Below are positions 24,328-45,642 of a stretch of DNA of 64,000 bases, piece by piece. The DNA comes from Paenibacillus massiliensis subsp. panacisoli DSM 21345 (GTDB taxonomy: Bacteria; Bacillota; Bacilli; Paenibacillales; Paenibacillaceae). The DNA lies in contig NZ_AUFO01000008.1 in the NCBI RefSeq assembly GCF_000426545.1, positions 44,857 to 108,856 of the forward strand, given 5' to 3'. Under the pieces are notes generated by a model, which had not been told where the DNA came from, did not search any database, and saw only the letters and a program-made list of their open reading frames with translations. The translations under genes were made by a program, and so were the position numbers. The first letter of the stretch is position 1. The number at the start of each line of letters is the position of its first letter.

Positions 24328-25884
24328 TTAGAATACCTTCGTTGTCCAAGATTCGCAGTTCCAAGTGTCTGTAACAACATCCTGGTAGAATTCAGGCTCG
24401 TGAGAGATCAGTAGAATGCTTCCTTTATAGGCTTTGAGGGCACGCTTCAGCTCATCCTTGGCATCTACATCCAAATGGTTCGTAGGCTCATCGAGCACCA
24501 ACAGGTTGGTCTCGTTATTAATGAGCTTGCACAGGCGCACTTTCGCCTTCTCGCCACCACTAAGGACAGCAACCTTGCTCTCGATATGCTTGGTGGTTAG
24601 ACCGCACTTGGCCAGAGCCGCCCGCACTTCAAACTGGGTAAAGGAAGGGAACTCCTGCCAGATTTCTTCGATACAGGTGTTATAGTTAGCTTCCTTGATC
24701 TCCTGCTGGAAATACCCGATCTCCAGATGCTCTCCACGTTGGACAGTGCCTTCCAGTGCCGGAATTTCGCCCAAAATACTCCGCATCAATGTCGTCTTAC
24801 CGATCCCGTTCGCCCCGACCAGCGCAATCTTCTGTCCGCGCTCCATGCGTAGATCCAGCGGTCTGGACAGCGGCTCGTTGTATCCGATCACCAGTCCATT
24901 CGTCTCAAAGATCAGCTTGCCTGAAGTTCTCGCATCCTTGAAATTGAACTGCGGCTTCGGCTTCTCTGCTGCCAGCTCAATAATCTCCATCTTGTCCAGC
25001 TTCTTCTGCCTCGACATCGCCATGTTGCGGGTAGCGACACTAGCCTTGTTGCGTGCGACAAAATCCTTCAGGTCTGCGATCTCTTGCTGCTGACGCTTGT
25101 AGGCAGACTCCAGCTGCTGCTTCTTCATCTCATATACTTCCTGGAAATGATCGTAATCACCGACGTAACGTGTGAGACTCTGATTTTCCATATGATAGAT
25201 GAGGTTGATAACACTATTCAGGAACGGAATATCGTGCGAGATCAGAATAAAGGCATTCTCATATTCCTGCAGGTAACGCTTCAGCCATTCAATGTGCTGC
25301 TCGTCCAGATAGTTCGTCGGCTCATCCAGCAGCAAAATATCGGGCTTCTCTAGAAGCAGCTTCGCCAGCAGTACCTTCGTGCGCTGTCCACCGCTCAGGT
25401 CATGGACATCCTTGTCCAGTCCAATATCCGTCAGACCAAGTCCGCGTGCCGTCTCATCTACCTTCGCGTCGATCAGATAGAAATCCTGATTTGTCAGCGT
25501 ATCCTGGATCGTGCCCACCTCTTCAAGCAGCTTTTCCAGCTCCTCCGGCGTGACATCCCCCATCTTACCGTACATGTCGTTCATTTCCTGCTCCATATCG
25601 AACAAGTACTGGAACGCACCGCGCAGCACGTCACGAATGGATTGCCCCTTACTCAGCACCGCATGCTGATCCAGATAACCTACCCGCATACGCTTGGACC
25701 ACTCTACCTTGCCTTCATCTGGCTGGAGCTTGCCCGTGATAATGTTCATGAAGGTCGATTTACCTTCGCCATTCGCCCCAATGAGGCCGATGTGCTCACC
25801 CTTCAGTAGGCGGAAGGATACGTCATTGAAAATAGCACGGTCACCAAAGCCGTGGCTCAATTTTTCTACATTCAATATGCTCAT
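24328..25884 (-). CDS. ABC-F family ATPase (YkpA/YbiT-like)
   Basis: This soluble protein has two ABC domains and no membrane part, so it is a ribosome-associated ABC-F factor rather than a transporter. Domain 1 has GANGEGKST and LSGGQRTKVLLAKLLLEKP with LLLDEPTNYLD. A linker of heptads follows (EMKKQQLESAYKRQQQEIAD). Domain 2 has GANGIGKTT, VLSGGEKAKVRLCKL and LVLDEPTNHLD. At 518 aa it fits the YkpA/YbiT branch; whether it gives antibiotic protection cannot be told. The ATG at 25884 follows AAAGGTG; an upstream in-frame start adds 22 unlikely residues. Confidence 0.9.
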   Translation of the reverse strand: MSILNVEKLSHGFGDRAIFNDVSFRLLKGEHIGLIGANGEGKSTFMNIITGKLQPDEGKVEWSKRMRVGYLDQHAVLSKGQSIRDVLRGAFQYLFDMEQEMNDMYGKMGDVTPEELEKLLEEVGTIQDTLTNQDFYLIDAKVDETARGLGLTDIGLDKDVHDLSGGQRTKVLLAKLLLEKPDILLLDEPTNYLDEQHIEWLKRYLQEYENAFILISHDIPFLNSVINLIYHMENQSLTRYVGDYDHFQEVYEMKKQQLESAYKRQQQEIADLKDFVARNKASVATRNMAMSRQKKLDKMEIIELAAEKPKPQFNFKDARTSGKLIFETNGLVIGYNEPLSRPLDLRMERGQKIALVGANGIGKTTLMRSILGEIPALEGTVQRGEHLEIGYFQQEIKEANYNTCIEEIWQEFPSFTQFEVRAALAKCGLTTKHIESKVAVLSGGEKAKVRLCKLINNETNLLVLDEPTNHLDVDAKDELKRALKAYKGSILLISHEPEFYQDVVTDTWNCESWTTKVF

Positions 25885-25936
25885 GCATGACACCTTTTCT
25901 GTAAAATTTAAATTTTCGGTATTGCCAATCCTGTAT

Positions 25937-25966
25937 ATTATAAGCTTCAAAGCAGGTCTGACTCAA
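25937..25966 (-). promoter_or_regulatory. Candidate sigma-A promoter of the ABC-F gene
   Basis: On the minus strand TTGAGT and TATAAT are separated by 18 bp, about 50 bp upstream of the ATG at 25884. Confidence 0.5.
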
Positions 25967-26112: not shown

Positions 26113-26256
26113 GTGGAGAGAGGCTACGGGCTCGGAGATTTCTTTCGATCGCTGTTAAAGCCTGATTCATTCATATTATATAAAAGAATTAGCGGATTAA
26201 ATCATGCTTTAAATGCGAGCACTCCGTTTCTACAGAAATCCTCCGACCCTCCGCTA
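26113..26256 (-). repeat. Left arm of inverted ~145-bp repeat flanking the CRISPR array
   Basis: Its reverse complement matches 27011-27152. The first 50 positions agree at 46 sites (starting TAGCGGAGGG), and the far end shares CTTTAACAGCGATCG and the terminal TCTCCAC. The centre is more diverged. No protein is supported. Confidence 0.8.
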
Positions 26257-26280: not shown

Positions 26281-26502
26281 AAATAGATATCCAAAACTGA
26301 GCTGTTTCCAGCTATCTTTTGGTGCGAATGCCAAGCTCACATGATTTCCCTGGGACATTCGCACCTCAGATTTTGTCGAAAGCATGTCGAATGTGAACAA
26401 TTATTGAACACACCTGCATTTCAGGCTGCATGAAGTCTTCCATTTTAACGGATGTACGGTAAAATAAAAGCTAGACGCAGCGTTTATACTCTGTTTTCCG
26501 CT
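26281..26502 (+). promoter_or_regulatory. CRISPR leader (type I-C like)
   Basis: This AT-rich noncoding DNA lies immediately 5' of the first repeat. It contains an inverted repeat GGTGCGAATG (26321-26330) / CATTCGCACC (26356-26365), and its general layout resembles leaders of type I-C arrays from Firmicutes as I remember them. In the usual arrangement a cas2 gene would lie just upstream; here there is only the repeat arm and the ABC-F gene. Confidence 0.65.
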
Positions 26503-26872
26503 GTTGCACTCTACATGGGTGCGTGGATTGAAATTGGCTGAGCCAGGGCTACGTGCCTAAAGAAATGCAGTTGCACTCTACATGGGTGCGTGGATTGAAA
26601 TATCTTCAATGTGCAGTCTTCCATCCTTCAACGCAGGTCGCACTCTACATGGGTGCGTGGATTGAAATATTTTTTCGGCGATTTCTTGTGGTGCTCTTTC
26701 GACGTCGTACTCTACATGGGTGCGTGGATTGAAATAAATGCAAAAAGGACCTGATAATGAAGCCGGCAGCGGTCGCACTCTACATGGGTGCGTAGATTGA
26801 AATAACGTCGATACCTTGTGGTATATATACGATGCAGCAAGTCCCACTTTACATGAGTGTGTGCTGTAAAAT
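26503..26872 (+). CRISPR. Type I-C-like CRISPR array, 6 repeats and 5 spacers, no cas genes
   Basis: The 32-bp repeats lie at 26503-26534, 26570-26601, 26637-26668, 26704-26735, 26772-26803 and 26841-26872. They end GCGTGGATTGAAAT, the classical type I-C 3' handle. Spacers are 35, 35, 35, 36 and 37 bp. Repeats 1-2 begin GTTG and repeat 3 GTCG; repeats 4 and 5 each carry a single change. Repeat 6 is strongly degenerate (GTCCCACTTT...), marking the trailer end, so the array reads left to right. No cas gene is within the 64 kb. It is short and decaying and may be served by a cas operon elsewhere. Confidence 0.95.
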
Positions 26873-27010
26873 GAATTACACAATAATATTAGTCGGTGTC
26901 TTTGTGTCTTAGAACCTAACTACAAATGCCAAAAGCCCGCGATCCTGACGGATCACGGGCTTGTTTTTTATGCCACTCATTATTCGAAAGCACGGGACAT
27001 GCACCCACTA
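26873..27010. other. CRISPR trailer region
   Basis: No gene is present. It contains a terminator-like hairpin at 26932-26970 and then unassigned sequence up to the right repeat arm. Confidence 0.6.
26932..26970 (+). terminator. Terminator downstream of the CRISPR array
   Basis: AAGCCCGCGATC and GATCACGGGCTT pair with one mismatch around a 6-nt loop, followed by GTTTTTTA. It could end the CRISPR precursor RNA. The minus strand also has a TTTT run, so it may be bidirectional. Confidence 0.75.
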
Positions 27011-27152
27011 TAGCGGAGGGTCGAAGGAATTCTGGAGAAACGAAGTGCTCGCATTTAAAGTTCAATTGCAACTGCTAATGCTCTTAGTAAATAAAAGAAA
27101 TAGGACTTTAACAGCGATCGGAAGAAGCCTTCGAACCCGCAGCGATCTCCAC
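27011..27152 (+). repeat. Right arm of inverted ~145-bp repeat flanking the CRISPR array
   Basis: It is the partner of 26113-26256 in opposite orientation. It begins TAGCGGAGGG and ends GATCTCCAC. It carries no gene and lies ~55 bp from the ispH stop. Confidence 0.8.
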
Positions 27153-27208: not shown

Positions 27209-28171
27209 TTACGTCGTGCTAGAGGCCTTGCTCTTATTCCGCACAGGCGGCAGAATCTTGCTCTTATCAATGGTACGCTTGATCTCCCAAGTCTCAGGCT
27301 TCTCATGATCATACTGCTCCAGATACTGTACTACTTCCTTCGTAATCAGAGTAGGCGTAGACGCTCCAGAGGTCACAGCGACACGCTGGATTCCCTGCAG
27401 CCATTCCTGCTTCAGCTCAGTCACATCCGCGACTCGATATGCCTTCACTCCTGCAATCTCCTCCGATACTTGAGCGAGACGGTTGGAGTTGTTGCTGCGC
27501 GGATCACCGACCACGATGACCAGTTCAGCCTGACCGGCTTGACCAGCGACGGCTTCCTGCCGAACCTGAGTAGCAAGGCAGATCTCGTTATGCACCTCGG
27601 CTATCGGGAATTTCTCCTGTAGCTTGTTCATAATGGCCTTGATATCCCACTGACTCATGGTCGTCTGATTCGTGATGATAATTTTGTCAGCAGACAGCTC
27701 CAGCCCGGCGATCTCATCCTCTTTCTCGATCAGATGAACTCGATCTGGCGCAATGCCGATGGCGCCTTCCGGCTCAGGATGCCCTTTTTTGCCGACATAG
27801 ATAATCTCATAGCCTTCTGCAACCTTCTCGCGAATCAGATCATGCGTCTTGGTCACATCAGGACAAGTGGCATCGACCGTAGTCAGGCCCTTCTCCTTGG
27901 CCAATCTTCGTACCTCCGGTGACACACCATGTGCCGTGAAGATGACCGTTCCCTGATCTACTTGCTCCAGAATTTCTAGTCGGTTAGGGCCATCCAGCGT
28001 AATGACTCCCTCCTCCTCGAACGAAGAGGTGACATGACTGTTATGAACAATCATACCAAGTATATAAATCGGACGCGGAAGATCAGGATTCTTCGCGGCC
28101 TGGCGAGCCATAACCATGGCGTCCACCACACCGTAGCAATATCCGCGCGGCGAAATTTTGACGATCTCCAA
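27209..28171 (-). CDS. ispH: 4-hydroxy-3-methylbut-2-enyl diphosphate reductase
   Basis: IspH is the last enzyme of the non-mevalonate isoprenoid pathway, an iron-sulfur protein producing IPP and DMAPP. The three cluster cysteines are visible in [26 protein letters not shown] and [12 protein letters not shown]. There are also the GMIVHNSHV loop, [11 protein letters not shown] and [14 protein letters not shown] place the start at TTG 28171 (L-E-I-V-K-I-S-P) after AGGTG; the longer reading frame adds 21 residues not typical of the family. Confidence 0.93.
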
Positions 28172-28350
28172 GATAGCACCTGCTTTCTGACGGCCTCGTG
28201 TATACAGTCTAAGAATGTATAGCGCTATTTCCATAATGGCCGCTCTATGATAATTGCTGCAAGATGAGTCGTAAGCATCCCTTGATCATCATCCACTAGC
28301 ATACTTCCCTGCATCACATAATTGTGATAGAGCTCACGTCACATTATACC

Positions 28351-45462: not shown

Positions 45463-45642
45463 TAAAAAAAATGACCCTTCCCAAAGTTTCGAGAAAGGTC
45501 ATGTTTATACTCCATATACGCCTCTCTCATCTCTCAGACATGTCATCATAATGACATGCTGCAAGAATTAGCACCGTGCGACGTATCGCCGGTTGCCGGG
45601 CTTCATCGGGCTAGTCCCTCCACCTGCTCTTGATAAGAAATT
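45463..45642 (-). promoter_or_regulatory. SAM-I (S-box) riboswitch of the met operon
   Basis: On the minus strand the conserved core CTTATCAAGAGCAGGTGGAG, then GGGACTAGCCCGATGAAGCC and CGGCAACC, is unmistakable. The expression platform is a terminator ATGACCTTTC...GGGAAGGGTCAT (45471-45502) followed by eight Ts. SAM binding should stop transcription of metA-metI-metC. Confidence 0.95.

Follow-up and report, generated by a model that had tools for sequence, protein, structure and literature searches.

Among described type I-C systems, that of Bacillus halodurans, with Cas4-Cas1-Cas2, is represented by work in which the hairpin target had a 10-bp leader, as given in the consulted portion of the report (PMC6519985). 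IHF-dependent or phase-dependent leaders have been described for types I-E and I-F (PMC12259127, PMC8616872, PMC9602844), and leader-end finding by the spacer-inserting machine has been described, in the consulted portion of one of these reports, for IHF-using systems and for type II (PMC8616872). The literature that we searched gave no answer as to how the type I-C integrase finds the leader end in hosts that lack IHF. Genomes that combine multiple arrays with one cas locus are also on record, and distant arrays are reported in the excerpted part of that work to be shorter for I-C among other types (PMC12814883).

We analysed a CRISPR array in a 64,000-nucleotide stretch of the Paenibacillus massiliensis subsp. 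panacisoli DSM 21345 genome (the window), a 6.33-Mb draft of 43 contigs in which the window lies on contig C5. Judging from sequence comparisons, we assign a probability of about 0.78 to the reading that this is one of nine leader-bearing type I-C arrays, likely filled and processed in trans by an operon on contig C21, and that a module 135 bp upstream of repeat 1 is predicted to dock the spacer-inserting complex. A type I-C array served in trans is ordinary in kind; the leader module appears to be a new variant of the known integration docks, and its novelty is provisional.

The window array and a cas operon elsewhere in the genome

The array occupies positions 26503-26872 of the window and consists of six 32-bp repeats and five spacers of 35, 35, 35, 36 and 37 bp in order (Table 1), which agrees with the earlier note and fixes the coordinates. 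The repeat ends GTGCGTGGATTGAAAT, as expected for type I-C. Repeats 1-5 each show at most one mismatch to the consensus, and the degenerate repeat 6 contains a GTGCTGT stretch in common with the last repeat of the array in Paenibacillus massiliensis DSM 16942, the nearest ispH relative listed (99% identity), hereafter the sister genome. The inverted repeat noticed in the leader is present (26321-26330 and 26356-26365) and forms part of a longer conserved module. The proposed downstream terminator was recovered by folding as a hairpin with a T-run (z -5.2), though it was absent from the listing of a simple terminator scan. Domain matches bore out the two neighbouring genes, the ATPase carrying two ABC_tran stretches and an ABC_tran_Xtn linker in the ABC-F architecture. 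In an Rfam search over the window the only match was a SAM riboswitch (45524-45639, minus strand, 71.6 bits).

Table 1. Features of the array locus, in positions of the window
Feature	Position	Strand	Basis or remark
ABC-F type ATPase gene, flanking	24328..25950	-	longest open frame, whose actual start could be further downstream
Palindromic intergenic element, left copy	26123..26256	+	inverted pair; model R1, 153 bits
Leader, 182 bp from module start to repeat 1	26321..26502	+	leader alignment, measured distances
Distal leader module: GGTGCGAA...TTCGCACC dyad and TTTTGTCGAAA	26321..26381	+	in 9/9 leaders of this genome
Repeat 1, GTT variant	26503..26534	+	
Spacer 1, 35 bp	26535..26569	+	
Repeat 2, GTT variant as in repeat 1	26570..26601	+	
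Spacer 2, 35 bp	26602..26636	+	
Repeat 3	26637..26668	+	
Spacer 3, 35 bp	26669..26703	+	
Repeat 4	26704..26735	+	
Spacer 4, 36 bp	26736..26771	+	
Repeat 5	26772..26803	+	
Spacer 5, 37 bp	26804..26840	+	
Repeat 6, degenerate	26841..26872	+	8 mismatches to consensus
Terminator-like hairpin and T-run	about 26933..26969	+	folding z -5.17; hairpin letters kept in the sister genome
Palindromic intergenic element, right copy, inverted	27011..27143	-	inverted pair with left copy; model R1
ispH (LytB), flanking	27209..28234	-	LytB/IspH match

At 31 of 32 positions the window repeat consensus is identical to the type I-C repeat of B. halodurans, as that repeat appears in the consulted portion of the source (PMC6519985). 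The repeat core was found at 31 sites in the genome, allowing up to three mismatches, and the backwards-pattern control gave none. A genome-wide search for Cas1 returned a single match, on contig C21 and not on the window contig C5; the other cas genes were named within the C21 operon. By NCBIfam names this operon encodes Cas3 (core and HD domains), Cas5c, Cas8c, Cas7, Cas4, Cas1c and Cas2, in the gene order cas3-cas5c-cas8c-cas7-cas4-cas1-cas2. The assignment to type I-C that had been made from the window therefore stands, supported by both the repeat and the full cas set. The statement that there are no cas genes holds locally, the sole Cas1 match lying off contig C5, but fails for the genome, which has the complete operon on C21.

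Nine arrays share the window leader: the window array on C5, one on C12, two on C1, two on C26 and three on C21. With these arrays and a complete operon on another contig, the description of the window array as orphaned does not hold. The genome search proposed in the earlier note yielded both the type I-C cas genes and further arrays with the same repeat; no cas operon adjoining the window array was found, and the repeat does match the cas system of the genome. Because contigs C26 and C33 end in array sequence and two C21 arrays hold runs of N (1,046 and 1,106), repeat counts in those arrays are minimal. The N runs, taken as assembly gaps, account for 1-kb 'inserts' after the first repeat of the two C21 arrays, which were rejected as such. 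In the C12 array (L051:3016-3185) two spacers have identical first 28 bases and then differ, as if from two variants of one target.

A distal leader module at fixed helical phase to repeat 1

All nine leaders have a sharp start at GGTGCGAA, 5' of which the set as a whole cannot be aligned; those on C5 and C12 show further similarity upstream of the module. From module start to repeat 1 the distance is 182 bp in eight leaders of this genome and 171 bp in one. The 60-bp module was found across the family; in other genomes too it is conserved and its 5' edge is sharp, and the best leader matches in those genomes fall on its conserved block; at E 0.001 a leader or repeat match was obtained in 20 of 39 genomes, the source genome counted. 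Over 123 leaders the conserved block reads GGTGCGAA-N4-AAGC-CACAT...TTCGCACCTC...TTTGTCGAAA, where TTCGCACCTC is fixed by the search pattern, and is followed on its 3' side by ~110 poorly conserved bases, then TTTTCGCT, then repeat 1. A literature search by title and abstract, with Santiago-Frangos 2021 and Buyukyoruk 2025 outside its scope, gave no description of this type I-C module.

The arms of the dyad were examined for covariation. Across 114 modules (912 cells), many of them chosen for an exact 3' arm, there were 31 uncompensated changes and 0 compensatory ones, and pairing at the four positions next inward from the arms is limited to 39-57%. An RNA stem thus found no support, though a single strand of the dyad would fold (z -3.0), and the lack of compensated change in the arms favours a site in duplex DNA. 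As read from the sequence, the dyad arms and the repeat have a GTGCG/CGCAC core in common.

The spacing of module and repeat was surveyed in 394 genomes of the family with a pattern of 3' arm, gap and repeat, in which the 3' arm and most repeat bases are thus fixed; G130, whose array coordinates equal those of G039, was taken with it as one genome. Matches were obtained in 71 genomes at gaps of 120-150 bp, in 15 genomes at 151-181 bp (22 matches, all at total length 194-200) and in none at 89-119 bp, and the backwards-pattern control gave 0 in each listed genome over all three gap ranges. The 172 matches listed comprise 150 from the 120-150-bp range (from 53 of the 71 matching genomes) and the 22 from the longer range. 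Their total lengths, an unselected sample, fall at 162-165 (7), 168 (1), 174-178 (115), 184-188 (27) and 194-200 (22), with none among the matches listed at 169-173, 179-183, 189-193 or 201-223, and have a best period of 11.0 without clustering.

For measurement of the gaps, 125 leaders were drawn from 30 automatic loci of the 120-150-bp range, 60 regions chosen from the matches listed in both ranges to cover all length classes, and multi-array loci. At 70% identity they gave 52 clusters, 50 of which lie in four gap peaks spaced by about one helical turn, at 121-126 bp (7 clusters), 134-136 bp (30), 143-145 bp (5) and 154-156 bp (8), with a scatter of 2-5 bp within a peak. Off this comb are clusters at gaps 84 and 269 and the one listed match at total length 168. 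The best period of the 50 clusters was 10.45 bp, a fit that was not reached in 20,000 smoothed nulls, whichever of five widths was used, in a sample that is not independent by descent even after clustering and includes many leaders hand-picked across length classes. In a class-wide draw 8 of 398 genomes matched, and the two outside the family (G028 and G702) have total lengths of 177 and 176, in phase. The leader beside cas3 is exactly 11 bp shorter than its orthologue in the sister genome, which is one natural step. In these leaders the conserved motif thus keeps a fixed helical phase relative to the repeat 3' of it, within the same limit of shared descent.

The genome encodes two proteins of the HU/IHF family (Pfam PF00216), both of which score best as HU; both fall below the IHF cut-offs and also below the HU cut-offs, so IHF was not identified as a bending protein. 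The module is most plausibly a DNA docking site whose phasing resembles that of IHF-type leaders, here in an IHF-less host. Cas4-Cas1-Cas2 acting in trans would add spacers at the leader end, with repeat 1 copied each time, while the module would be bound as duplex DNA by the integrase or another partner. Bending of the ~135 bp in between would bring the module to the leader-repeat junction, perhaps through HU, since no IHF was recognised. Our proposal is thus a looped complex that needs no IHF, for which the first candidates are HU and the integrase. Cas5c cuts the array transcript in such systems and would do so for the transcript of the window array.

A rather unlikely alternative is that the distal module serves the transcription of the array, as a regulatory or promoter element, or is a repressor site. 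In its favour, the module has a palindromic form, and the AT-rich stretch downstream of it could hold a promoter. Phasing with promoters along the helix can also occur among regulatory sites, and a promoter at fixed distance to the repeat predicts the same comb. The poor conservation of the ~110 bp between module and repeat speaks against this alternative, as does a promoter scan that listed no array-strand site inside the leader, although both are weak arguments. We retain the docking site as the preferred reading and extend it, at slightly less than even odds, to the type I-C arrays found in Paenibacillaceae and in some further Bacilli. In these an IHF-free integration complex would dock on the 60-bp dyad module, which stands ~12-15 helical turns away from the junction of leader and repeat. 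This dyad would reuse the GTGCG/CGCAC core of the repeat, and the integrase may hold both ends of the DNA loop. The module would also make the array portable, with leader copies elsewhere served in trans even after an effector swap.

Flanking palindromes, spacer turnover and effector divergence

The array is bracketed by two ~134-bp palindromes, inverted relative to each other, which had escaped the first reading of the window. A model built on six copies, the left window copy included (R1), gave at least 71 matches in this genome and at least 47 in the sister genome, opposite-strand matches to the same copies included and with 150 of 701 and 666 candidates scored, respectively. The family has tens of copies in each of the four Paenibacillus-clade genomes searched, often as inverted pairs, and Rfam gave no match in 20 loci around palindrome copies. 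In Paenibacillus sp. XY044 (L070:9200-10149) four palindromes stand in a row within 1 kb, ~3 kb from ispH. The window and C12 arrays align over the left palindrome, across a 64-bp linker and on into the leader, and therefore look like copies of one unit: the elements are identical at 116 of 132 aligned positions, and the linker score was reached by 0 of 500 shuffles. Outward of the palindrome the local alignment continues weakly over another 72 bp, with identity at 44 of 67 aligned positions. Probably the window array arose by the copying of a unit of palindrome, linker, leader and repeats common to the C12 array.

We consider it decidedly unlikely that the two inverted ~134-bp palindromes delimit a mobile unit which moves the array about the genome. 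Consistent with such a unit, the pair brackets the window array, the C12 array shares palindrome, linker and leader, and at five sites in this genome a total of six palindromes have array sequence 57-138 bp away, which at one of the sites is a lone degenerate repeat. Inverted pairs 62-1,158 bp apart also occur in two other genomes, G006 and G007. In this genome and the sister genome one pair brackets a fragment with the Pfam transposase domain DUF772, which raised our estimate slightly. However, G006 and G007 showed no copy within 300 bp of their listed arrays (150 of 781 and 719 candidates scored), which weakens the idea that palindromes generally accompany arrays. No type I-C repeat was present in the 15 pair interiors examined, another pair brackets a short-chain dehydrogenase frame, no target duplication was seen, and the compared array sites are occupied in both sister genomes. 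We regard the palindromes of this lineage as hitchhikers, or else as substrates for local duplication, and not as a proven vehicle.

The DUF772 fragment lies at L211 (G000:C13:113000-114500) here and at L212 (G039:C5:305900-307300) in the sister genome, the domain being identified from L211. Elsewhere, the gene of a DACNH-DAC-TPR protein sits between two array-type palindromes (L214, G000:C12:18500-23000; L215, G039:C8:35900-40000); the protein has 911 aa in DSM 16942 and is represented here by two open frames of 194 and 715 aa. PADLOC gave no match for the DSM 16942 copy of this gene, nor for two glycoside hydrolases.

At the same site DSM 16942 has an array, a leader, a terminator-like hairpin and flanking palindromes, in aligned blocks that are 94.7-98.0% identical. 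There is no spacer in common between the 36 extracted here and the 110 extracted from DSM 16942 (spacers with N and inter-repeat gaps outside 25-60 bp were dropped), and at the ispH-side locus alone none is shared between five here and six there. Except for the last, the repeats at this site read CATGGG here and CATGAG in DSM 16942. Window repeats 1 and 2 have a C-to-T change in common that is missing from repeats 3-6, which is what copying of repeat 1 into each newest repeat would give. Given this private mutation and the absence of spacers shared with the sister, the window array looks alive, and it looks to be served in trans, the option for which the C21 operon, the nine shared leaders and the spacer turnover all argue. 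Seven array loci align to array loci of DSM 16942 (C5, C12, two on C1, two on C26 counting C33, and the one upstream of cas3 on C21) while their spacers all differ, which indicates that array positions are stable and that content changes. The same repeat variants stand at different array positions in the two genomes, and recombination between arrays could explain part of the spacer replacement. One DSM 16942 array (L172, G039:C14:83493-83728) has four identical neighbouring spacers.

The type I-C PAM is 5' TTC. The comparison of spacers with phage databases gave no protospacer for the five window spacers, either with exact 20-22-nt seeds in IMG/VR or in one blastn search of the whole array against phage records. 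Seven IMG/VR contigs with a 20-nt match to spacer 3 were rejected as protospacers, the full-length comparison giving 13/35 mismatches in the six of seven that were readable; three weak matches of the whole array in unannotated faecal phage records were read as repeat similarity. That the array is a relic which no longer gains spacers or is read, one of two options left by the earlier note, is very improbable: the array is short (five spacers) with a degenerate last repeat, lies on a different contig from the cas genes and lacks a protospacer match, but its leader module is intact, repeats 1-5 keep to the consensus with at most one mismatch each, its leader is shared by nine arrays and the repeat core stands at 31 sites, no spacer is common to the sister genome at the same site, and repeats 1 and 2 bear their private mutation.

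The cas operons of the two genomes differ along a gradient. Protein identity is 87% for Cas1 and Cas2, 79% for Cas4, 71% for Cas7, 68% for Cas5c, 52% for Cas8c and 45% for Cas3, and two genes beyond the operon are at 89.9 and 98.5%. The drop from Cas2/Cas1 to Cas3 spans L050:3308-11433 against L172/L173, with similar flanks. Such a gradient suggests that, in one lineage, recombination replaced the interference half and left arrays and leaders in place, in which case the arrays would have survived an exchange of effector genes. The sister pair suggests that dispersed arrays can survive strong effector change, which bears on how one operon serves many arrays.

Comparison with described systems

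The system of B. halodurans is alike in its repeat, in the bases just before repeat 1 and in its type I-C cas genes. The distal module was not part of the target described in the consulted portion of that work, given its short leader, and here nine leader-bearing arrays face one Cas1 gene (PMC6519985). In the excerpted account of multi-array genomes with one cas locus, arrays of one subtype are dispersed as they are here; in contrast to those genomes, no spacer is shared between the two sisters compared here, effectors differ strongly and orthologous arrays are kept (PMC12814883).

For the module itself the closest likeness is with the IHF-dependent leaders of types I-E and I-F, which, in the portions of the reports consulted, have a motif upstream of the repeat with an expected dependence on helical phase; in I-F this motif is an inverted repeat, as in the module here. 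The sharp edge, the helical phase and the natural one-turn variants make the module directly testable for spacer acquisition. It differs from the I-E and I-F leaders in its host, where no HU/IHF-family protein reaches the IHF cut-offs, and in its reach, the 3' arm ending 121-156 bp from the repeat in the main peaks.
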